Below are positions 22,176 to 33,603 of a stretch of 64,000 bases of DNA, in pieces; the first letter of the stretch is position 1, and every line of letters begins with the position of its first letter. The notes under the pieces are model-generated. The model worked only from the letters and a program-made list of their open reading frames with translations, was not told the origin of the DNA and searched no databases. A program made the translations under genes and the position numbers. Source of the stretch: Treponema sp. (lineage in GTDB: Bacteria; Spirochaetota; Spirochaetia; Treponematales; Treponemataceae); assembly GCA_024693715.1 (NCBI GenBank), contig JAILKS010000034.1:62001-126000 (forward strand), in the 5' to 3' direction.

Positions 22176-22207
22176 GAATAAAAGATAAAAACTGTTTTTA
22201 ATCTATC

Positions 22208-22236
22208 TTGAATTATCCGCATTTTAGCATTAGAAT
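22208..22236 (+). promoter_or_regulatory. Promoter of the MFS transporter gene
   Basis: TTGAAT (22208-22213), 17-base spacer, TAGAAT (22231-22236). The predicted start near 22243 precedes a clear AGAGGA Shine-Dalgarno. Confidence 0.6.
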
Positions 22237-22272
22237 ATTTTAATCATAAAAAAATTCAGAGGATTTTTTAAA

Positions 22273-23568
22273 ATGAAAAACATTCAGAACAAATGGTTAA
22301 GAGGAGCAATTCCTGCCCTTCTTCTTCATTGCAGTATCGGTACGGTATACTGCTGGTCAATCTTCAGCCAGGAAATTGCTGACTACATCGGTTTTTCAAA
22401 AGGTGCAGTAGAATGGGCTTTCAGCTTTGCAATTTTCTTCCTTGGAATGTCAGCTGCTTTCTTAGGCAGCCTTGTAGAAAAGAATATTCATAAGTCATCA
22501 CTTATAGCAGCAATCACATTTGCTCTTGGTATGGCTGGAACAGGCTTCTTTATCTGGTACGGAGGAACTCACCAGCACAGCGTACTTTCATTAATCGGTA
22601 TTTATATTTCATACGGATTTATAATGGGAATAGGACTTGGAACAGGTTATCTTTCTCCTGTAAAAACTCTGATGCTCTGGTTTCAGGATAAAAAGGGTCT
22701 TGCAACAGGTCTTGCAGTAGCAGGTTTCGGTGCTGCTAAAGCAATTGCTTCTCCTATCATGAGCAGAATGCTTAAAGGTCTTGGAGATGGTGGTGTTTAT
22801 AAAATGTTCTATATTCTTGCACTGGTTTATTTTGTAATGATGATGCTTGGTCACTTTATGCTTGCAAAACCGGAAGGCTGGATAGAGCCACAGAAAAAAT
22901 CAAAGGAAGAAGGAATTATTGCTACACTTAAAACAGAACCTATCGCTTCTTACATAGGTATCTGGCTCATGTTCTATATCAACATTACGTGCGGTCTTGC
23001 AATTATTTCTCAGGAAAAAATGATTGTAAAATGCGTAGGACTTGGCGCTTTTGCAGGAATTATTTCCACTATTTCTGCTTTGTTCAATGCAGGCGGACGT
23101 TTAGGTTTTTCTGCCTGGGCAGATAAAATGAAAGACAGAAATACTGTTTATAAATTAATTTTTGCACTTTCAATAATTTCTACATTAATTGTTTTATTCA
23201 CAAAGGGAATTGCAAATGGTGCCGGAAACGCAGCACTCATTATTTTTGTACTTGCATTAATATTTATCGTAAATGCAGGATACGGCGGCGGATTCTCTAA
23301 TGTTCCTACCCTTCTTTCAGATCACTACGGAATGGGTAACATTTCAGCAATTCATGGAATTACTCTTTCTGCATGGGCATTTGCAGGTTTAACTGGAAAT
23401 CAGATGGCATCATACATCGTAAACCATACAGGTAGCTTTATCGAAGTTGCAGGCGTAAAAGCAAATCCGACAGGATATCAGAACGTACTTATTGTAACTA
23501 CAATTTTATATGCAGTTGCAATGTGTTTGAGTCTTTTCCTTGTACGACCGATGAAAAAAGCAAAATAA
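22273..23568 (+). CDS. MFS transporter, OFA (oxalate/formate antiporter) family
   Basis: A 431-residue integral membrane protein with about 12 hydrophobic segments. The N-terminus (GTVYCWSIFSQEI) and the first-loop region followed by GTGYLSPVKT match the OFA branch of the major facilitator superfamily, whose best-known member is the Oxalobacter oxalate:formate antiporter OxlT. Many OFA members carry other monocarboxylates, and no formate- or oxalate-metabolism gene is adjacent, so the substrate is uncertain. It has its own promoter and a likely terminator located inside the end of the convergent gene. Confidence 0.88.
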   Translation: MKNIQNKWLRGAIPALLLHCSIGTVYCWSIFSQEIADYIGFSKGAVEWAFSFAIFFLGMSAAFLGSLVEKNIHKSSLIAAITFALGMAGTGFFIWYGGTHQHSVLSLIGIYISYGFIMGIGLGTGYLSPVKTLMLWFQDKKGLATGLAVAGFGAAKAIASPIMSRMLKGLGDGGVYKMFYILALVYFVMMMLGHFMLAKPEGWIEPQKKSKEEGIIATLKTEPIASYIGIWLMFYINITCGLAIISQEKMIVKCVGLGAFAGIISTISALFNAGGRLGFSAWADKMKDRNTVYKLIFALSIISTLIVLFTKGIANGAGNAALIIFVLALIFIVNAGYGGGFSNVPTLLSDHYGMGNISAIHGITLSAWAFAGLTGNQMASYIVNHTGSFIEVAGVKANPTGYQNVLIVTTILYAVAMCLSLFLVRPMKKAK

Positions 23569-23590
23569 GTTTATTAATTTTTTAATAAAA

Positions 23591-26500
23591 CTAATCATTC
23601 AGGCGGATTAAATTCATAACAAGAAGATATGAATTGTCCGCCTGTTTTGTTGAATTTATGATGAGAGAGATTTTATGATATTCCTTATTCTTAAAGCGGC
23701 TTTTGAATTCACACATAAAAGGAGTATCAGGTTCAGAAAGTACATGCGCTGCTGCATCTGAGAATATTCTTGCTTTATCCTTTGGATGAAGTAAATTATA
23801 TAAATCTTTTTCACTCCATCCTTTTACTTCTTCTTCCGTATAGCCGGTAAAGTGTATGAATTCTTTATTTACCTTGATGATACGAAGCTCGAACTGCTGT
23901 TTAGAAAGATGCTTCTCGTCAAATTTTACAAGACAGATAAGCTGACCAATTTCATCATTATCAGATTCCTGTTTAAGCTGATTTGACGTAATTCCCAGAG
24001 TTCCTTCAGATATTTTTTCATCCGTAACATCAGATAAAAGAACATACAAAAGGTGATTCGAATCATTATTTCCTATTTTCCAGATTATTGATTTTATCCA
24101 AAGAATGCTGTTTTCCGGATATTTTTTGTTCTGAGTAACACAGAATTCTTCCTTTTGAGAAACAGAAGCGACTCTAAGGATGCTTTTATAATCATTATTT
24201 CCATCTCTTTTGAGGAAGTTTTTAAGGTATTTTCTGATTTCCCTATTATCCTTGTTTTCAAGTCCAAATAATCTAAGACATTTCTGATTACATCGTAAAA
24301 GTTCAACAGAATCTGTAGTATCATTAAATTCAAGAATTGCAGCAGGTCCGGTAAACTGTTCAAACATGATGCTTTCATTCGAATCGGGATTAAAGAAATT
24401 TCTGAAATCAAAGAAAGTGCTCTGTTTATGATTTGCCTCGACCTTCGAAGTTCCATTTGATTCAAGAAGCGCTACAAACTGTTTTGAGCTTACAGGACGT
24501 GAAAAATAAAATCCCTGTAAAATATCACATCCGATTCCTTTTAAGAAAGAAACCTTTTCGTTTGACTCAACTCCTTCTGCAACCGTCAATAAATCGAGAC
24601 TATGAGCCATTCGTATTATTGAAGATACAATGTTACCACCCTTATCCATATTAGATTCATCACGAATAAATCCCATGTCAAGCTTAAGAATATCAATTGA
24701 AATATCCTTAAGAGTATTTAAAGACGAATAGCCGCTTCCAAAATCATCCATGGCGATTTTATAGCCAAGATCCTTGATTTTATTTATTCGCTCAATAATT
24801 TCATTTGAATCACTTATATAAGCGCTTTCTGTAATTTCAAAATGAATATATTCGGTAGGAATTTTATATTCATCTGTAAGACGTTTGATTGAATAAATTA
24901 AAGCATCTGATTCAAGACTGACACGTGAAATATTAATTGAAATCGGAACAAGTGGTATTCCTGATTCCATCCAGTGCTTTATAAGTGAGAAGGTTTTCTG
25001 CCATATAATTTTATCAAGAACACGAATAAAACCGTTTTTTTCTGCGACAGGAATAAATACAGATGGAAGAAGAATAGTACCGTCAGGCTTTTTCCATCGG
25101 CACAACGCTTCAGCACCGACAATTTTAAATGTCGAAGAACTGTATTGCGGTTGAAAATACATAATAAATTCATCGTTATCAAGAGCGCTTTGCATCTGTG
25201 CGGTGATTTCTGCTTCCTGAAGCATTTTATCACGATATTCCTTAGTAAAAACAGAAAATGTATTCTGAATTGAAGAAACCTGCTTATCCATAGCAATTGT
25301 CGCACAACCGAGAAGATACATAAGGTCTTCATCAGGACTTAAAGAATAAGTTATTCCAAAACGCATGGTTACTGGAATTTTCATGCCAAGAGAAGAACAA
25401 TCAAAATATTTTATATCTCTTAAACGCTGAAGATTTTCCGGTGTATTTTCTACAAAAAGCATGAAAGAACCGCCGCCTAGTCTTCCGCAAATACCGGTTG
25501 AACCTGCAACCTTTTGAAGATTACTTGAAATAATTCGCAAAACATTATCACCAATAGCAGAGCCGTACAAATCATTAATAACTTTAAAGCGGTTAATATC
25601 ACCTGTACATAAAAGAAAAGACTGATTTGGATTTTTCTGAAGAATGTTTGATGATTCCTGAATAAAAGTCGGACGGTTAGGAATTCCTGTAAGAATATCA
25701 ATTTTCAGACGATATTCCATTTCATCCTGCATGTAATGAATACAGTTTTCCTTTTTGTTATATCCGCATGCGATTGCCCTTGCCATTTCCTTGCAGCTTT
25801 TATAACCACACTGACCGCAGTTTATAGAGCGTTTTTCTTCAGTGGTCTTAAGCATTGCATTAAAAATCTCATTAAGAACATTTTTCGGTATAGTAAACGG
25901 CTGTGTGTATCTGTCTATATAAATTCGTTTAAAGTCATCGACATTTAACCCTTTAAAAAGCTCATTAAGAATATCCTGATTTTTTTCCCAGCTGTTTGCA
26001 CGGTTAAAAATTGATTTAGTTTCTTTATGAAGCTTATTTATATTTGAAACAATTTGAGAAGGCTTATAATACTTTTTATCTACACCTGCACATTCATAAC
26101 ATCCATTTAAGCAGGCTATTACTTCAGAATAAAGCGGTTGATCTTCCATGTATTCTTCACTCATCGAAAGACCAAGCATCTGGAAGGTATTAGGAGAAAG
26201 TCCAGTTAACTCCTGAATATATTCACCATAAGGTAAAAACAAAGATAAAAGGTCACGTACAGAACCCGGTAAGGTAGTAACGGCACCAATTCCTGTACTT
26301 ACAAGATCAGGTTCGGCACTTAAGCCTTCAAAGCGTTCTATATTGAAATTCAACCTGTCGATATAATTCATCATATGTTCGAAGGTCAAATTATAGTCAA
26401 TATAGTTATTTGTAGATTTAGATAATATTTCATCCTTTGCGGCAATACATGGACCGATATAAACAAACTTATTCGTATCTTTCAAATATTTTTTTGCATA

Positions 26501-27040
26501 GATTGCGGTACACATCATCGGAGAGTGAACAGGAATAAGTTTATTTCTCAAATACGGATAGAATAATTCAATATTATTAACAAGGGCTGGACAATTGGGA
26601 GAAATAAAAGCTCTTTCTACAGGCGGAAGCTTCTGGGCTTTTTTGATATAATCTATCGTTGCCCATAATGAGATTTCTGCTCCATAAGATGATATATATA
26701 TTTTATCAAGTCCCTGCTGCTTTAAATATCCAAGTATTTTATTAGAGTCATCTCCATAAACCATATAAAAGGAGGGAGAAATAATTGCAGATATTTTTTC
26801 ACCGCTTTCAAGTGCCCTGAAAAAATCAGAATCATCATCTATGAAATGACGTGCTTCCCGAACACAAGATTTTATACATTTACCGCAATGATTACACTTT
26901 ACCGGATCAACCAGAACAGAAGATTTACCGTTTTTAAAAACAGAAATATTCGCACCGATAATATTACAAAGAGAAATGCATTTATTACATGCTATACATT
27001 TATCATCTGTATAAATAAGCCCATTATTAAATCTTGCCAT
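23591..27040 (-). CDS. [FeFe]-hydrogenase-like sensor fused to GGDEF (degenerate), EAL and PAS domains
   Basis: An 1149-residue cytoplasmic signalling protein. In order: two [4Fe-4S] ferredoxin motifs (Cys15, 18, 21, 25 and Cys49, 52, 55, 59); an [FeFe]-hydrogenase large-subunit C-terminal domain (about 80-320) with H-cluster-type cysteines at 150 (SPNCPAL), 198 (GPCIAAKDE), 310 and 314 (ACLNGC); a small Fe-S domain with CGQCGYKSC at 408-416; GGDEF (about 445-600) reading GGGSF at 522-526, so cyclase activity is unlikely; EAL (about 605-860) with EALCRW at 644-649, DDFGSGYSSL and AEGVE, so c-di-GMP phosphodiesterase activity is plausible; and one or two PAS-like domains to the end. The hydrogenase loops differ from catalytic hydrogenases (TSCCP, MPCxxK, GGGQP) and resemble sensory ones. 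It follows the FIST gene by 24 bases. Confidence 0.9.
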   Translation of the reverse strand: MARFNNGLIYTDDKCIACNKCISLCNIIGANISVFKNGKSSVLVDPVKCNHCGKCIKSCVREARHFIDDDSDFFRALESGEKISAIISPSFYMVYGDDSNKILGYLKQQGLDKIYISSYGAEISLWATIDYIKKAQKLPPVERAFISPNCPALVNNIELFYPYLRNKLIPVHSPMMCTAIYAKKYLKDTNKFVYIGPCIAAKDEILSKSTNNYIDYNLTFEHMMNYIDRLNFNIERFEGLSAEPDLVSTGIGAVTTLPGSVRDLLSLFLPYGEYIQELTGLSPNTFQMLGLSMSEEYMEDQPLYSEVIACLNGCYECAGVDKKYYKPSQIVSNINKLHKETKSIFNRANSWEKNQDILNELFKGLNVDDFKRIYIDRYTQPFTIPKNVLNEIFNAMLKTTEEKRSINCGQCGYKSCKEMARAIACGYNKKENCIHYMQDEMEYRLKIDILTGIPNRPTFIQESSNILQKNPNQSFLLCTGDINRFKVINDLYGSAIGDNVLRIISSNLQKVAGSTGICGRLGGGSFMLFVENTPENLQRLRDIKYFDCSSLGMKIPVTMRFGITYSLSPDEDLMYLLGCATIAMDKQVSSIQNTFSVFTKEYRDKMLQEAEITAQMQSALDNDEFIMYFQPQYSSSTFKIVGAEALCRWKKPDGTILLPSVFIPVAEKNGFIRVLDKIIWQKTFSLIKHWMESGIPLVPISINISRVSLESDALIYSIKRLTDEYKIPTEYIHFEITESAYISDSNEIIERINKIKDLGYKIAMDDFGSGYSSLNTLKDISIDILKLDMGFIRDESNMDKGGNIVSSIIRMAHSLDLLTVAEGVESNEKVSFLKGIGCDILQGFYFSRPVSSKQFVALLESNGTSKVEANHKQSTFFDFRNFFNPDSNESIMFEQFTGPAAILEFNDTTDSVELLRCNQKCLRLFGLENKDNREIRKYLKNFLKRDGNNDYKSILRVASVSQKEEFCVTQNKKYPENSILWIKSIIWKIGNNDSNHLLYVLLSDVTDEKISEGTLGITSNQLKQESDNDEIGQLICLVKFDEKHLSKQQFELRIIKVNKEFIHFTGYTEEEVKGWSEKDLYNLLHPKDKARIFSDAAAHVLSEPDTPFMCEFKSRFKNKEYHKISLIINSTKQADNSYLLVMNLIRLND
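23601..23650 (+). terminator. Probable terminator of the MFS gene, inside the 3' end of the convergent gene
   Basis: AGGCGGA (23601-23607) pairs with TCCGCCT (23637-23643), and AATTCAT (23611-23617) with ATGAATT (23629-23635), giving a 14-bp interrupted stem. GTTTTGTT follows on the plus strand. The hairpin lies in the last codons of the hydrogenase/EAL gene. A separate AT-only hairpin at 23570-23589 is weaker. Confidence 0.5.
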
Positions 27041-27064
27041 TTCTACTATAAATATTTTATTACA

Positions 27065-28180
27065 TTATTCAAATATTGCAAGAGCCATTGTTAAATTAAG
27101 ATGGATAAAATCAAATTGTTCGCCATAACCGGAAAGACATATAAAGTTTTTATATGAATCCCGAAGCTGCTTTTCAAAGGGTTCAAGAAGCTCTTTTGTT
27201 TCAAACAACTTTGTTCTTGCGATACAATTAATAGCTATTGCAAATGAAGGATTCGAAACCTGGGCTAAAGTTTCTTCTTTCGTAGTAGACCAGACCTTCT
27301 GTACATCATCAAGATCAATTAATGAAACCTTTGTCTGATTAAATATCTGTGCAAGATACTGAATAGAATTATCTTTATTCACACAATTAGGCTCTGTCAA
27401 AAAAACTTCATCGCCAATAAGTCTTCCAACCGGATATCTTTTTATATTATCTGCAAAACGCTCTACATTCATCCCAAGTGCCTGAGAAAGTGCTTCTGCT
27501 GCAGGTTTACCGTCATATTCATAGACAATTCTTTTTTCACAATCTACTTCAGTAGCGGTAAAAATTTTATTGGACGGTTTATACAATGTTTCTTTATAAA
27601 GGGCTATTCTTCCATTCAAATTATGAATAAGTACAAAAACACATGTATTTTTATAGATTTCACCATTTAATGAAACTATTGAACGGTCTTCCCCATCCTT
27701 CGCTCCACTGGTACCTCCAATTAAAGGAATACCCATTCCACTTAAAACCTCATCGAAAGTATCAAGTACAAGTTCTTCTGCATAGGAAAATGCCGTAGAA
27801 AATTCAAGACAACAGGTGTTTGTACATACAGAAAGTGATGCAACTGCTTCTTTGATATGCCTTATATAATTTGCAGGATGATGATCTATTTCAAAAACTG
27901 CACCAGCTACACATTCAATGCCGGAAAAAACTGACAGTGCGGCAAAGCCGGTCTTTGAAATTGAATTATTACAAATGTTCATATAAGTTGTAGAACCAAT
28001 TGTAATAGCCTCTGGATAACGTTTTTTAATATTTTCTGCATAATACCAGAACACATCTACATCGGACGTAAAAACAATGAGCTTTGGAGTTTTTCCTACA
28101 CTGTCTATCTGTAAACAGACTTCCTCAAAAGCCTTTTCATAATTCTGATTATCTGAAAATGCCGTTATCGATCTACTCAC
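27065..28180 (-). CDS. FIST domain sensor protein
   Basis: A 371-residue protein with the FIST N and FIST C layout: the N-terminal part (about 30-225) contains YPEAITIGSTT and GIPLIGGTSGAKDG, and the C-terminal part (about 230-365) contains PVGRLIGDEVF and CLSGYGEQF. FIST domains are proposed small-ligand (possibly amino-acid) sensors found beside or fused to chemotaxis, histidine-kinase and c-di-GMP proteins. The start is GTG at 28180 with AGGGAG 8 bases upstream, overlapping the TAG of the upstream gene by one base (TAGTG). The hydrogenase/EAL gene follows 24 bases later, which suggests a shared signalling unit. Confidence 0.88.
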   Translation of the reverse strand: MSRSITAFSDNQNYEKAFEEVCLQIDSVGKTPKLIVFTSDVDVFWYYAENIKKRYPEAITIGSTTYMNICNNSISKTGFAALSVFSGIECVAGAVFEIDHHPANYIRHIKEAVASLSVCTNTCCLEFSTAFSYAEELVLDTFDEVLSGMGIPLIGGTSGAKDGEDRSIVSLNGEIYKNTCVFVLIHNLNGRIALYKETLYKPSNKIFTATEVDCEKRIVYEYDGKPAAEALSQALGMNVERFADNIKRYPVGRLIGDEVFLTEPNCVNKDNSIQYLAQIFNQTKVSLIDLDDVQKVWSTTKEETLAQVSNPSFAIAINCIARTKLFETKELLEPFEKQLRDSYKNFICLSGYGEQFDFIHLNLTMALAIFE

Positions 28181-29412
28181 TAGAAATCTCCCTGAAAATC
28201 AGTTCCTTGTATTTCTTCTAAAAGAAGTTCTCTCAATATTCCCGTATATATTGCGTTAATCAACATTTTATCATCTATTTTTTTATATTCAATCAATAAA
28301 ATATCCTTATAAAGATTTCCGTCCTTCATAAATTCATAACCTACAGGAATTGATTCTTCATATTCACCATCCCAAAAAACATAATATACGACATCAGACG
28401 GTAAATCTGAAAATTTATATTTTCCACGAACTGCAATTTCTACGTTTTTCTGTTCAGGATTAATATATTGTCCTGCCTTTTGACTATCAATGAAAGTCTC
28501 ACTTAAAAAAGAAATTGTAGTATTAACAACCGGTGAAGATGCTTTTTTGTAAGAGCGGTATTTTTTAGCAGAAATCTTATTTATACTTAGATTTTTTCCT
28601 AATTCATCCCAGTTTAATTCATTAATAAAGAGGCTGATTAGAAATTCTAGATCTTCATCAAGATTTTCACTTTGATTATCAAACAAAGAATCTTCGTTCT
28701 GTTCTGACTGAAAATCCTCAGGAAAACTGTCTTCAAAGGCGATATAATCCCAGTCTTTGTGGATATTTTCTTTTTTTTCTGCTTTTTTCGAAACGTTTTT
28801 TAAAAGTGTTTTATTGTAATTCATATCATAAATTACAGCCTTTGAATTACTTCCCTTAAAAGCATTTTTACCTATTTTGTCATAGTTATACATGTAAATC
28901 GCTATAAGATTTCTACAGTTTTTACATAAACCGTCAGGAATATTTTCAGAAAGAAAATCACCAAAATATACCCAGTAAAGATTTTCATGATCTGCAAAAC
29001 AATTGTCCGGCAAAAATCCGTAATCACGTGAATAATATGACGAAGAAAAATCTATACAGATTTTTTTATCCTTATTATCAATAAGATATTCCCTCAAATC
29101 ATAAAAATATGATTTATTCTGAACATCATTGAAATATATGTAATCAAAAGGACCGTAAAATTTTATGTCTGTATCTGCAATAAAAAGATTATGGATTTTC
29201 TGAATCATCCTTGTTTCGAAAAAATCACTGTTTAATTTTGAAAAGTCAAAATCATCTTCTAAAATCAAAGCATAAGAACCACCCGCTTCAAGACTATCAA
29301 GCACATACTCAAAATTATCAGGAGTTACATTTTTTTCTTCATAAATTGAATGAAGGGCAAACAAGCTGGTAAAGCAAAAAAGCAAATACAATACGATGAT
29401 TTTTCTCTTCAT
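28180..29412 (-). CDS. Exported protein with BspA-like leucine-rich-repeat segment
   Basis: A 410-residue protein with a signal peptide of about 20 residues (MKRKIIVLYLLFCFTSLFAL). Residues about 125-195 contain short units such as LPDNCFADHENLYWVYFG and IGKNAFKGSNSKAV, the pattern of LRR_5/BspA repeats. The rest is Asp/Glu/Asn-rich with no recognised domain. It overlaps the FIST start by one base and follows hisS by 23 bases, so it probably belongs to a hisS-led operon. An envelope or surface location is inferred from the signal peptide. Confidence 0.65.
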   Translation of the reverse strand: MKRKIIVLYLLFCFTSLFALHSIYEEKNVTPDNFEYVLDSLEAGGSYALILEDDFDFSKLNSDFFETRMIQKIHNLFIADTDIKFYGPFDYIYFNDVQNKSYFYDLREYLIDNKDKKICIDFSSSYYSRDYGFLPDNCFADHENLYWVYFGDFLSENIPDGLCKNCRNLIAIYMYNYDKIGKNAFKGSNSKAVIYDMNYNKTLLKNVSKKAEKKENIHKDWDYIAFEDSFPEDFQSEQNEDSLFDNQSENLDEDLEFLISLFINELNWDELGKNLSINKISAKKYRSYKKASSPVVNTTISFLSETFIDSQKAGQYINPEQKNVEIAVRGKYKFSDLPSDVVYYVFWDGEYEESIPVGYEFMKDGNLYKDILLIEYKKIDDKMLINAIYTGILRELLLEEIQGTDFQGDF

Positions 29413-29435
29413 AGCATTTTCCTTCTATAACAGTA

Positions 29436-30737
29436 TTATCCTTTAATTAAGGAAGCAGCCTTTTCAACTGTACAGGCATCGAAGCATTCTCTTGTTGCAA
29501 GTTTTTTTAATGTAAAAGTATTATTCTTTACATCATCTTCTGAAACTAAAATACCCCAAGGAATACTTTTAGCTTCAGTTAAATTATACTGCTGATTCAT
29601 TTTTTTTGCATCAGGAAAAACTTCGACATTGATATTTTTATTCCTCAATAAAGAAGCAATTTTCTGATAGTAAACCGACTGATTTTTATCTGTACAGAAA
29701 ATTTCAACATCAACATAACTTCCTTTATTACCGGTAATTCCAAGCTGTTCAAGACCAGCAATAAGACGGTCTAAACCAATTGACATACCTACTCCGGGAA
29801 GTCTTTCTTTCATGTAAAGGCCTGCAAGATTATCATAACGACCACCTGAACATATTGAACCGATGGATGGAAGTTCATCAAGAAAGGTTTCATAAACTAT
29901 GCCTGTATAATAATCAAGTCCGCGTGTAATAGCAGGATTAAGCACATAAGTATCTTCTATTCCGCTTGCCTTCATCATTTCATATATTTCACGAAGTCGG
30001 CATGTATCTTCTGCAGGACCACCGGCTTTCTTCTCAAGCTTATCAACAATTTCAAGGAAGCTTCCCTTTGTACTGATAAAATCAATAATTTCATCGGCTG
30101 TTTTTTCATCGTTACAGTAACTTAAAAGTTCTTTTTTTACTTCGTCCTGTCCGACTTTAAGAATTTTATCAACAGCACGTAAAATATCCTCTGATTTATC
30201 AATTACACCAAGCTTATCAAGGAAACGATTAAAAATACCTCTGTGATTAACATGAATCTTTATATTCTTTACATTTATTGCATTAAGTGCGCATTTCATT
30301 ACATTGAGAATTTCAAAATCTGATGCTGCACTATCTGAGCCGACTGTATCAACATCACACTGAATGAATTCACGATAACGACCTGCCTGTGGTTTTTCCC
30401 CACGCCATACTTTAGCAATATGATAACGCTTGAAAGGAAAACAAAGCTCTGCATAATGTTCAGCAGTATAACGTGCAAAAGGAACAGTTAAATCAAAACG
30501 AAGCGCTACATCACGTCCGCCATTATCCTGAAAACGGAATAACTGTTTTTCAGTTTCTCCATTGCTTTTTCTTAAAAGAATTTCTGAATACTCCAAAACG
30601 GGAGTATCAATCGGTACAAATCCGAATGAACGGTAAACATCTGTAATTTTTTCTACAAGTGAATCCCTGAAAATCTGATTTGAAGGAAGAAAATCACGAA
30701 AACCCTTTAAAATCTTTGGTTGAATTAAATTTGCCAT
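29436..30737 (-). CDS. hisS: Histidyl-tRNA synthetase
   Basis: Class II synthetase charging tRNA-His. It has motif 1 near the N-terminus (KGFRDFLP), motif 2 (FDLTVPFARY and RGEKPQAGRYREF), the HisA/HisB-type segments RGLDYYTG and CSGGRYD, and a C-terminal anticodon-binding domain. The start at 30737 (MANLIQPKIL) gives 433 residues. A longer frame to 30857 has no synthetase-like sequence and would overlap coaX. There is no Shine-Dalgarno and a -10 box ends 6 bases before the ATG, so it may be leaderless. Confidence 0.97.
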   Translation of the reverse strand: MANLIQPKILKGFRDFLPSNQIFRDSLVEKITDVYRSFGFVPIDTPVLEYSEILLRKSNGETEKQLFRFQDNGGRDVALRFDLTVPFARYTAEHYAELCFPFKRYHIAKVWRGEKPQAGRYREFIQCDVDTVGSDSAASDFEILNVMKCALNAINVKNIKIHVNHRGIFNRFLDKLGVIDKSEDILRAVDKILKVGQDEVKKELLSYCNDEKTADEIIDFISTKGSFLEIVDKLEKKAGGPAEDTCRLREIYEMMKASGIEDTYVLNPAITRGLDYYTGIVYETFLDELPSIGSICSGGRYDNLAGLYMKERLPGVGMSIGLDRLIAGLEQLGITGNKGSYVDVEIFCTDKNQSVYYQKIASLLRNKNINVEVFPDAKKMNQQYNLTEAKSIPWGILVSEDDVKNNTFTLKKLATRECFDACTVEKAASLIKG

Positions 30738-30743
30738 AAATAT

Positions 30744-30772
30744 ATAATATCTTAAAAATTTGTAAATTACAA
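30744..30772 (-). promoter_or_regulatory. Promoter of hisS, very close to the ATG
   Basis: On the minus strand TTGTAA (30772-30767), 17-base spacer, TATTAT (30749-30744). The start codon at 30737 is 6 bases past the -10, close to where transcription should begin. Confidence 0.5.
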
Positions 30773-30789
30773 TAAATCTGGGGTTTAAA

Positions 30790-31584
30790 ATGTTACTCGC
30801 ATTTGACATTGGAAACACGAACATAAAGGCAACTGTTTTTGATAATGATAAAATCATCTCACAATGGCGTATAACAACTGATGTAAAACGAACGGGTGAT
30901 GAATATTATTCAATATTACGTACTCTTTTAAAAGACGCTGCAATTGATTTTTCCAGAATTGATGATGCGATAATAAGCTCGGTAGTTCCAGCCCTCATTG
31001 GACCTTTTGTAATAGTTTCAACAAGAATTACAGATAAAAAACCGTATATTATAGAACCCGGCATTTACGATAAACTTCCGGTCAAAGTTCCTGAAACTGC
31101 CGTTCATGAAATAGGAACTGATTTACTTTGTGATGCAGTTGAAGCATGGAGTAAGTATAACGGTCCAGTTATTGTTGCAGATTTCGGCACTGCCCTTTCC
31201 TTTACAGCAATTGATAAAGATGCAAATATTGCAGGTGTTGCAATTGCACCAGGAATCAGAACTGCCTTTAATTCACTTTTTGCTAATACTGCACAGCTTC
31301 CCGCTGTTGCCCTGGATATTCCTCCTACAAGTCTTGGTAAAAATACAGTTGTTGCGATTCAATCAGGCATTGTTCTTGGATATAAAGGACTTGTTGAAAA
31401 TCTTATAAAACAGATGAAACAGGATCTTGAAAAAGAAACAAAAACACCGGCGCAATCAATCAAGGTTATTGCAACCGGTGGTCTTAACAGCATGTTACAG
31501 CCTATTACAGATATTTTTGATGATACAGACAAGAACCTCACATTAAACGGGATGCTCCGAATCTATAAATTAATATCTCAATAA
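30790..31584 (+). CDS. coaX: Type III pantothenate kinase
   Basis: First step of coenzyme A synthesis from pantothenate, CoaX type (ASKHA fold). The phosphate-1 motif FDIGNTNIK is at 5-13. The catalytic/ADP motif VADFGTALSFTAID and the later TGGLNSML are typical. The 264-residue length is normal. It is divergent from hisS; only a weak GGGG precedes the ATG. The convergent SPOR gene begins immediately after its stop. Confidence 0.95.
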   Translation: MLLAFDIGNTNIKATVFDNDKIISQWRITTDVKRTGDEYYSILRTLLKDAAIDFSRIDDAIISSVVPALIGPFVIVSTRITDKKPYIIEPGIYDKLPVKVPETAVHEIGTDLLCDAVEAWSKYNGPVIVADFGTALSFTAIDKDANIAGVAIAPGIRTAFNSLFANTAQLPAVALDIPPTSLGKNTVVAIQSGIVLGYKGLVENLIKQMKQDLEKETKTPAQSIKVIATGGLNSMLQPITDIFDDTDKNLTLNGMLRIYKLISQ

Positions 31585-33603
31585 TTATTTAATCCTTCGT
31601 ACAAATGCATCCTTATAGCCGTAAGCCTTGAATCTTTCAAGAACTGCACCGTATTCATCTACGGTTAAAGGACCGATTAATACCTGACTGCTGCCATTTG
31701 ATAACTGAATGACAACAACAGGATAATTTTTACCGTATTTTGAAATTATTTCTTTAATCAGTTCTTCATTTTTCAAAACAGCTATTTGAATATAATATTT
31801 GTTTGAAATCAATTTATCACTGACTTCGACAGGTGCATTATTTTCAGAAAGATCTATTGCCGGTTCTGCTTCCATCTCTTCAATTACATCTTCAATCTGT
31901 GGAACAAGAACTTCAACTTCATTTTTCTGAATTTCAGGTTCAATAATATTGATTGGCTCTTCAACTGTCTGTTCAGTTTCTTCTTCTACAATTTCTTCTT
32001 CAGCAGGAACTTCTTCAACCGGAAGCTCTTCTGCAGGTTCTTCAAGAGAAATGGCTTCTTCAACTTCATGAACATTCTCAGAAGATGGCTCTACAGTTTC
32101 TTCAACCGGTGTTTCTTCTGTAACTTCTTCCTGTGGAGTCTCTTCTTCAACAGGAAGCTCTTCTGCAGGTTCTACAATGACTTCTTCTTCTACAGGAGTT
32201 TCTTCAATCACTTCTTCTACAGGATTTTCTTCCTCAACCGGAGTTTCTTCGTCCGGTTCTTCTGCAGGTACTTCATCAGAAGGTTCTTCAAGAGAAATTG
32301 CTTTCTCAGCTTCTTCTTCTACAGGTTCAAGTTCCTCTGCCTCAAACTCTTCGGCTTCTACTGGCTCTTCTTCAACAATCTCTTCTGCAGAAGATTCTTC
32401 TGTTATTTCTTCCTGCGAAGTATCTTCTTCAACCGGAGTTTCTTCTTCAGGTTCTTCAGCGATAACTTCTTCCTGATTTTCTTCTTCTATAGGTTCAAGC
32501 TCATCTGCCTCAAACTCTTCTGCTTCTACAGGCTCTTCTTTAACAATTTCTTCTGCAGAAGATTCTTCCATTACTTCTTCCTGCGACGTCTCTTCTTCAA
32601 CCGGAGTTTCTTCTTCAGGTTCTTCAGCAATTACTTCTTCCCGATTTTCTTCTTCTACAGGCTCAAGTTCATCTGCCTCAAACTCTTCTGCTTCTACAGG
32701 TTCTTCTTCAACAATCTCTTCTGCAGGAGCTTCTTCTATTATTTCTTCCTGTGGAGTCACTTCTTCAACCGGAGTTTCTTCTTCAGGTTCTTCAGCAAAT
32801 ACTTCTTCCTGATTTTCTTCTTCTACAGGCTCAAGTTCATCTGCCTCAAACTCTTCTGCTTCTACAGGTTCTTCTTCAACAATCTCTTCTGCAGGAGCTT
32901 CTTCTATTATTTCTTCCTGTGGAGTTTCTTCTTCAACCGGTGATTCTTCTTCTGGTTCTTGTACAGGAGCTTCTTCTTCAGGCTCTTCTAAAGGTGTTTC
33001 TTCAATTTCCTGTGGAACTACAACTTCTTCTTCTATTATTTCTTCCTGTGGTTCAAAATCAACAGTTTCTTCATCATCATTTTCTTCAATTATGATTGTT
33101 TCAACTGGTTCTGAAGCTTCCGGCTCATCATCAATAAGCCATTCAACTTCATCTTCTTCCTTCGGTAAAACCTGATTATTTGTTTTTGGAGAAGAGTTTG
33201 TATTTTGCGGTAAATCTGAACTGTTAGCCTTTGCAATTACCGCAGAACCGTAAACCCGTTCATCCTGATTAGAACGCTTTGTAATTTTTACAATATTATT
33301 TGCATTAACATCGATTCCGATTGCCTTTGCCGCTTCCGGAGAAAGCATGATGGCTACACCTTCCGATGGATCTAATGCGCCGATTACAAGAATATCAACA
33401 GTCGTTTCACCGCTGATATTAGTTACACTGATGATATCACCAGGAAGATAACCTACAGTCTTTGCAAATAATCCCTGTGGAAATACACCTTCATCTACTA
33501 CAATGGCACGCCCGTCAAGCGAAGGACTGAGAGAATATACTTTTACACATAATGAAATCAAAAGAAAAAATATTGATAAAAACTCGAACTTTCTCTTTCT
33601 CAT
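31585..33603 (-). CDS. Exported SPOR-domain protein with long Glu/Pro repeat region
   Basis: A 672-residue protein. The signal peptide is about 1-25. An N-terminal domain (about 28-120, with GFLPGDIISVTN-like strands reading GYLPGDIISVTN) may be RlpA-like. Residues about 150-570 are a highly acidic Glu/Pro/Val region built partly from 56-residue tandem repeats. A C-terminal SPOR domain (about 600-672; starts KYYIQIAVLKNE, ends DAFVRRIK) is the type that binds denuded peptidoglycan at septa. A role in cell division or cell-wall binding is inferred from SPOR. The upstream 167-residue exported gene ends 14 bases before its start. Confidence 0.85.
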   Translation of the reverse strand: MRKRKFEFLSIFFLLISLCVKVYSLSPSLDGRAIVVDEGVFPQGLFAKTVGYLPGDIISVTNISGETTVDILVIGALDPSEGVAIMLSPEAAKAIGIDVNANNIVKITKRSNQDERVYGSAVIAKANSSDLPQNTNSSPKTNNQVLPKEEDEVEWLIDDEPEASEPVETIIIEENDDEETVDFEPQEEIIEEEVVVPQEIEETPLEEPEEEAPVQEPEEESPVEEETPQEEIIEEAPAEEIVEEEPVEAEEFEADELEPVEEENQEEVFAEEPEEETPVEEVTPQEEIIEEAPAEEIVEEEPVEAEEFEADELEPVEEENREEVIAEEPEEETPVEEETSQEEVMEESSAEEIVKEEPVEAEEFEADELEPIEEENQEEVIAEEPEEETPVEEDTSQEEITEESSAEEIVEEEPVEAEEFEAEELEPVEEEAEKAISLEEPSDEVPAEEPDEETPVEEENPVEEVIEETPVEEEVIVEPAEELPVEEETPQEEVTEETPVEETVEPSSENVHEVEEAISLEEPAEELPVEEVPAEEEIVEEETEQTVEEPINIIEPEIQKNEVEVLVPQIEDVIEEMEAEPAIDLSENNAPVEVSDKLISNKYYIQIAVLKNEELIKEIISKYGKNYPVVVIQLSNGSSQVLIGPLTVDEYGAVLERFKAYGYKDAFVRRIK
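32310..32956 (-). repeat. 168-bp tandem repeat (about four copies) coding for 56-residue Glu/Pro units
   Basis: Landmark sequences such as CTCAAACTCTTC recur at 32341, 32509, 32677 and 32845, exactly 168 bases apart, and ACCGGAGTTTCTTC recurs at 32432, 32600 and 32768. The encoded unit reads roughly EEETPVEE ... EEPVEAEEFEADELEPVEEE. The first and last copies are more divergent. The array can change copy number by slippage without a frameshift. Confidence 0.9.

Follow-up and report, generated by a model that had tools for sequence, protein, structure and literature searches.

The locus lies in a window of 64,000 nucleotides from a Treponema sp. genome and holds four genes, all on the minus strand. 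Their order is hisS (29436-30737), a gene for an exported-looking protein of 410 amino acids (28180-29412), a gene for a FIST protein of 371 amino acids with a GTG start (27065-28180, identified by Pfam) and a gene for a protein of 1149 amino acids (23591-27040) with Fe-hydrogenase-like, GGDEF, EAL and PAS domains, identified by domain matches, orthologues and alignment and here called HYDEAL. hisS sits 23 bases upstream of the second gene, whose reading frame overlaps FIST by one base, and a gap of 24 bases separates FIST from HYDEAL; an earlier note on this DNA had given the same FIST coordinates, gap and overlap, and the positions of the open reading frames bear them out. Within 22200-31700 no terminator-like sites were found and promoter-like sites were at chance level (40 seen versus 40.9 ± 6.1 in shuffled sequences), so a single transcript across the locus is possible, and the gene at 28180-29412 may be a co-transcribed neighbour of FIST. 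The product of this gene had been labelled an LRR protein, a label without Pfam support: the protein gave no Pfam match up to E 0.01 and no LRR match up to E 1, and the only two matches up to E 1 were both weak and unrelated. On visual inspection its start resembles a signal peptide, and one or two stretches look LRR-like. On the opposite strand, an MFS transporter gene of the lactate/oxalate-formate type (22273-23568) converges on HYDEAL, with 22 bases between the two gene ends, and a gene of this kind occupies the same position in 8 of the 16 Treponemataceae FIST-HYDEAL pairs described below.

The N-terminal part of HYDEAL has the layout of the sensory [FeFe] hydrogenases of groups C and D. 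Two ferredoxin-type [4Fe-4S] sites (Cys 15, 18, 21, 25 and Cys 49, 52, 55, 59; 26849-27007, minus strand) were located by alignment; the H-domain (Pfam Fe_hyd_lg_C; 26099-26797, minus strand) was identified by Pfam, alignment and fold and keeps the cubane cysteines 150, 198, 310 and 314. A Cx2Cx4Cx16C Fe-S motif (Cys 408, 411, 416, 433; 25742-25819, minus strand; by alignment) adjoins the GGDEF domain and corresponds to what is described, in the accessible text of PMC8163306, as the extra site of the group C/D enzymes. Besides the ferredoxin-type sites and the Fe-hydrogenase large subunit, Pfam found a small FeS domain. The ferredoxin-type cysteines are invariant in 27 of 27 orthologues, and none of the 16 Fe-S cysteines is replaced in any of the 26 FIST-linked rows of the residue comparison. 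Over residues 1-380 the predicted fold of the module (pLDDT 90.3) corresponds to that of [FeFe] hydrogenases (best Z 37.3, 350 residues aligned). Thus the "hydrogenase" of HYDEAL is a fold, and hydrogenase activity is only putative.

Three further regions, all encoded on the minus strand, follow this module. A GGDEF domain (25280-25702; Pfam and motif check) is degenerate, with GGGSF in place of the GG(D/E)EF motif of active diguanylate cyclases, and the intact motif was found in 0 of 26 FIST-linked rows. The EAL phosphodiesterase domain (24494-25198; Pfam and residue check) has its catalytic residues intact: E644, N703, E735, D765, D766, K786, E822 and Q842, which we take to be the catalytic set, are present in 51 of 51 rows. 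The C-terminal PAS region (23642-24346; Pfam) consists of a weak PAS_8 match at residues 899-932 and PAS_3/PAS_9 matches at 1052-1133. Among the paired HYDEAL orthologues, 16 of 27 are longer than 1000 amino acids and the other 11 (853-878 amino acids) end after the EAL domain. Because the EAL residues are intact and the GGDEF domain is degenerate, the likely output is c-di-GMP breakdown, and on the simplest reading HYDEAL would be a phosphodiesterase with an allosteric or structural GGDEF domain. A c-di-GMP network is likely in this organism, since its genome contains 17 GGDEF matches.

The FIST protein consists of a FIST N domain (PF08495; 27506-28078, minus strand) and a FIST C domain (PF10442; 27113-27502, minus strand), both over the Pfam cut-off (FIST 75 bits, FIST_C 38 bits), and it is the only FIST match in its genome. 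Sequence searches of the PDB with the protein, alone or as a profile, returned nothing credible, whereas a fold search found matches. The model (pLDDT 94.2) resembles the FIST domain of FBXO22 (Z 22.2, 255 residues aligned), a eukaryotic ubiquitin ligase in which the domain is protein-binding; lower matches were three-repeat "Toblerone" hydrolases and chorismatases (Z about 12). These matches agree with the published FBXO22 structure as far as the accessible text describes it (PMC11185555). All 27 FIST proteins compared have Cys124 and Cys319, and 26 of the 27 have His360, which is no more than suggestive of a ligand site formed by these residues.

We then surveyed the neighbourhood of the two genes. 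In 195 genomes of the family, some FIST match was present in 57 and a match of more than 180 bits in 20, the next best score being 120 bits. HYDEAL comes directly after FIST on the same strand in 16 of the 20 genomes with this type of FIST; three genomes have both genes apart from each other (G023, G144, G140), and the remaining one (G129) carries FIST but no HYDEAL orthologue. Named genomes were also scanned for relatives of the Fe-S module; the best 80 of 383, which were examined, came from Treponema, T. bryantii and T. porcinum among them, and from Bacillota, chiefly Lachnospiraceae. An EAL domain is present in 33 of these best 80 of 383, and in 18 of the 33 FIST lies directly upstream; five of the 18 loci belong to Lachnospiraceae (L142, L143, L145, L151, L153), and T. 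bryantii is also among the carriers of the pair (L132, L133). The other 15 of the 33 have HYDEAL without an adjacent FIST, although two of them have too little upstream DNA for a FIST gene to be seen. When the two sets were merged, at least 27 distinct FIST-EAL pairs were obtained from Treponemataceae and Lachnospiraceae, all with both genes on the same strand; the distance from the FIST stop to the conserved HYDEAL Met ranges from -1 to 74 bases.

The surroundings of these pairs vary between genomes. hisS and the exported protein precede FIST only in the window and in a sister genome, G097, whose FIST is 86% identical to that of the window and has a 69% relative of the 410-residue protein upstream; both genes are therefore placed outside the conserved module. 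A conserved hisS-LRR-FIST-EAL operon was considered and rejected, as the order recurs only in this one sister genome. The earlier note had proposed that FIST is coupled to the EAL protein, and had named separate promoters together with the lack of a conserved neighbourhood in related genomes as the finding that would speak against it. What is conserved, across two phyla and in differing surroundings, is the FIST-EAL part of the neighbourhood, which supports the coupling, while the hisS and "LRR" part is confined to the two genomes just named. In six T. bryantii-like genomes (L063-L067, L070) the gene immediately upstream of FIST, which overlaps it or is separated from it by a few bases, encodes a hybrid histidine kinase; the HisKA, HATPase and REC domains of the kinase were checked in two of the six.

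The remaining 47 of the best 80 of 383 relatives have no EAL domain: 44 carry an MCP chemoreceptor domain and three are incomplete. The MCP proteins, from Lachnospiraceae and Treponema, share the N-terminal module of HYDEAL, but their output is a chemoreceptor, and no FIST was found near any of the 44 loci, 1200 bases of upstream sequence being present in only 37 of them; nor was FIST found near the three incomplete relatives. FIST and HYDEAL do lie side by side, and their adjacency is both conserved and specific to proteins with the EAL output. Treponema of the gut and rumen and some members of the Lachnospiraceae carry the two genes next to each other, and therefore the two probably form one two-part sensor. 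The opposing explanation, that they are no more than neighbours, regulated or mobilized together, whose products neither touch nor work together, draws on the three genomes in which both genes persist apart and on the frequent occurrence of HYDEAL without FIST. It sits poorly with so many closely spaced pairs on one strand, which recur in two phyla although their surroundings differ, and with the limitation of the pairing to the EAL output, and we regard it as the least probable of the readings considered here. Downstream of distant FIST paralogues of the family (about 25% identity; L097-L099, L101, L116 and others) comes a gene for a soluble MCP protein, confirmed in three cases. The most telling regularity in this sample is that FIST and the Fe-S module are each linked to chemotaxis on their own, but are found together only where the output is EAL.

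The association was also followed in trees. The tree of the Fe-S module contained 105 rows, after nine rows with identical H-modules had been merged (114 to 105) and L202 (347 amino acids) had been excluded, as it was from the residue comparison. On this tree the FIST label changes 9 times, compared with a mean of 23 in shuffles, and 0 of 500 shuffles were as low; nine rows with short upstream sequence were unscored for FIST. Distances between FIST proteins and between H-modules are correlated (Mantel r 0.93, 27 pairs, including L067, which is nearly identical to L066, and L131, whose FIST start is uncertain). Among 313 distant comparisons r was 0.64; 0 of 2000 permutations reached the observed correlation, which shared descent confounds and can explain in part. 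In neither tree do the rows from Lachnospiraceae group as a single clade (4 and 3 changes), although the starred branches force only 1 and 2, and the joins of long branches in the module tree are unsure. Horizontal transfer of the pair between the phyla was considered and is not claimed.

What the Fe-S module senses was approached through the residues around the [2Fe] site. In an alignment to CpI, the position of Lys358, a residue with a role at the [2Fe] site, is Ala in the window HYDEAL and that of Cys299 is Asn; by the replacement of the lysine the protein departs from the sensory [FeFe] hydrogenases. The Lys358 equivalent is kept in only 9 of 26 FIST-linked rows (lost in 17), in 17 of 23 other EAL rows and in all 54 remaining rows, which comprise 46 rows without an EAL match, two of them incomplete so that the output domain is not visible (L171, L183), and 8 Treponema HydS; the lysine is thus kept in the MCP relatives. 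The M353 and M497 positions are also changed in the HYDEAL module. According to the accessible text of PMC8163306, changes of the C299, M353 and M497 type also occur in the working sensory hydrogenases TmHydS and TamHydS, and TmHydS, with M353 and M497 exchanged and in a subclass without C299, is still a hydrogenase. The C-terminal cluster of TamHydS is reported to have given no H2 response (PMC13104023, accessible part), which calls its role as a relay into question. In the open-licence literature, no paper was found on K358 together with FeFe hydrogenase. The [2Fe] site thus looks relaxed in this clade.

HYDEAL could nevertheless be a true H2 sensor of the group C type, in which a full H-cluster drives the EAL domain and FIST is a secondary modulator. 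The sensory-hydrogenase layout including Cx2Cx4Cx16C, the invariant cubane cysteines and the [FeFe] hydrogenase fold (Z up to 37) all agree with this, and so does the presence of HydE, HydF and HydG in the window's own genome. Such a sensor is made less likely by the loss of the lysine near the [2Fe] site here and in most FIST-linked rows, and by the distribution of the maturases, HydG being over the cut-off in only 5 of 27 pair genomes. Among 19 genomes with the pair or with both genes, HydE, HydF and HydG were all over the cut-off in the same five, and in the other 14 none of the three was.

We do not take the absence of HydEFG as proof that there is no H-cluster. Motif-intact [FeFe] hydrogenases are kept in seven of the 14 genomes without HydEFG over the cut-off, these being the seven with loci read (L216-L219 in G097, G186, G039 and G023; L220, L222 and L226 in G086, G095 and G090), so maturase absence does not prove H-cluster absence and that argument was rejected. 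These hydrogenases, with groups named by resemblance, are group-A-like with a HydB-like neighbour or group-B-like, and both T. bryantii isolates are included; either the maturases were missed or the H-clusters are made in another way. The window's genome contains a group-A-like hydrogenase fragment at a contig end (L115, G000:C64). On the residues described above, a redox or gas sensor built on Fe-S clusters seems likelier for HYDEAL than an H2 sensor.

For the FIST protein, the nearest published systems, as far as their texts are accessible, are those around NosP and CdpA, and the statement of the earlier note that FIST domains are tied to c-di-GMP proteins is indeed in print for both NosP-NahK-NarR and CdpA (PMC8846402). 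NosP-NahK-NarR consists of a FIST sensor, a kinase and a GGDEF-EAL response regulator, so that there, as here, a stand-alone FIST protein is genetically tied to c-di-GMP breakdown (PMC8846402, PMC12570481); NosP, however, binds haem and acts via the kinase, whereas the present FIST gene adjoins the phosphodiesterase gene itself. In Vibrio cholerae CdpA, FIST-FIST_C and EAL form one protein and the FIST part controls EAL, similarly to what we propose, but CdpA is fused and haem-inhibited (PMC8846402, accessible text); in the present pair the FIST protein stands alone, and its EAL neighbour is equipped with an Fe-S module. These precedents raise the possibility that FIST is a NosP-like haem-based NO sensor controlling the adjacent phosphodiesterase, as NosP does via its kinase. 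The NosP model covers the whole FIST protein and the hybrid kinase gene upstream of FIST in the six T. bryantii-like genomes fits the comparison, as does the published action of NosP on c-di-GMP enzymes; the match, however, reaches 110.5 bits against an NCBIfam equivalog cut-off of 450. Furthermore, ferrochelatase was found in none of the 27 pair host genomes, compared with 8 of 14 controls; to sense NO through haem, the protein would depend on haem taken up from outside or obtained in some other way. The human FBXO22 FIST is described, in the accessible text, as having no obvious ligand pocket and as binding BACH1 in a haem-insensitive manner (PMC11185555). Together, the failed NosP cut-off and the missing ferrochelatase argue against haem binding, and we consider the NosP-like sensor somewhat more doubtful even than the H2 sensor.

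We favour, with a probability of roughly 55%, a two-gene FIST-HYDEAL module in which an Fe-S-gated phosphodiesterase receives a second input from a docked, haem-independent FIST protein. HYDEAL would be a soluble c-di-GMP phosphodiesterase with an intact EAL domain driven by the degenerate GGDEF domain. Its N-terminal input would be a module of the sensory-hydrogenase type with four predicted [4Fe-4S] sites, namely the two ferredoxin-type sites, the cubane of the former H-cluster and the Cx2Cx4Cx16C site next to GGDEF. The [2Fe] subsite has probably been lost from the module in this clade, and instead of H2 the module may sense redox changes or a gas to which Fe-S clusters are vulnerable. FIST, with its three-repeat "Toblerone" fold, would be made together with HYDEAL and dock on it, adding a second, haem-independent input that would raise or lower EAL activity; this input may be the binding of a small ligand or may come from a conserved cysteine that reacts. 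Co-transcription, physical contact, the direction of control and both signals are what we infer from sequence and predicted folds. The suggestion of the earlier note that the FIST and hydrogenase domains are two inputs to the same EAL output is reasonable in view of the published ties between FIST and c-di-GMP, provided that "hydrogenase" is read as a fold.

The favoured module shares two [4Fe-4S] sites, the H-domain and Cx2Cx4Cx16C with the group C/D sensory hydrogenases TmHydS and TamHydS (PMC8163306, accessible text). It differs from them in the fusion to GGDEF-EAL, in the loss of the Lys358 equivalent and in a PAS region that is far C-terminal or absent. More tentatively, and with less confidence than in the module itself, it may stand for a class of phosphodiesterases gated by a former hydrogenase that has lost [2Fe] but retains every [4Fe-4S] site and serves as a redox or gas sensor, working only with a haem-free FIST that supplies the second signal; the pair, which occurs in both Spirochaetota and Bacillota of the gut, may have been exchanged between these phyla. 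No mention of hydrogenase, iron-sulfur or Fe-S was found in the accessible part of a census of c-di-GMP sensors (PMC8846402), and in the open-licence literature no paper was found that names the FIST domain and hydrogenase together. If the reading is correct, c-di-GMP signalling in common gut anaerobes would receive an input that derives from a hydrogenase. FIST, a domain of uncertain ligand, would gain a partner in hosts in which no ferrochelatase was found, and therefore the haem and non-haem roles of FIST could be separated directly.

Elsewhere in the window, a gene at 31585-33603 encodes a protein of 672 amino acids with long Glu/Pro-rich repeats between more ordinary ends.
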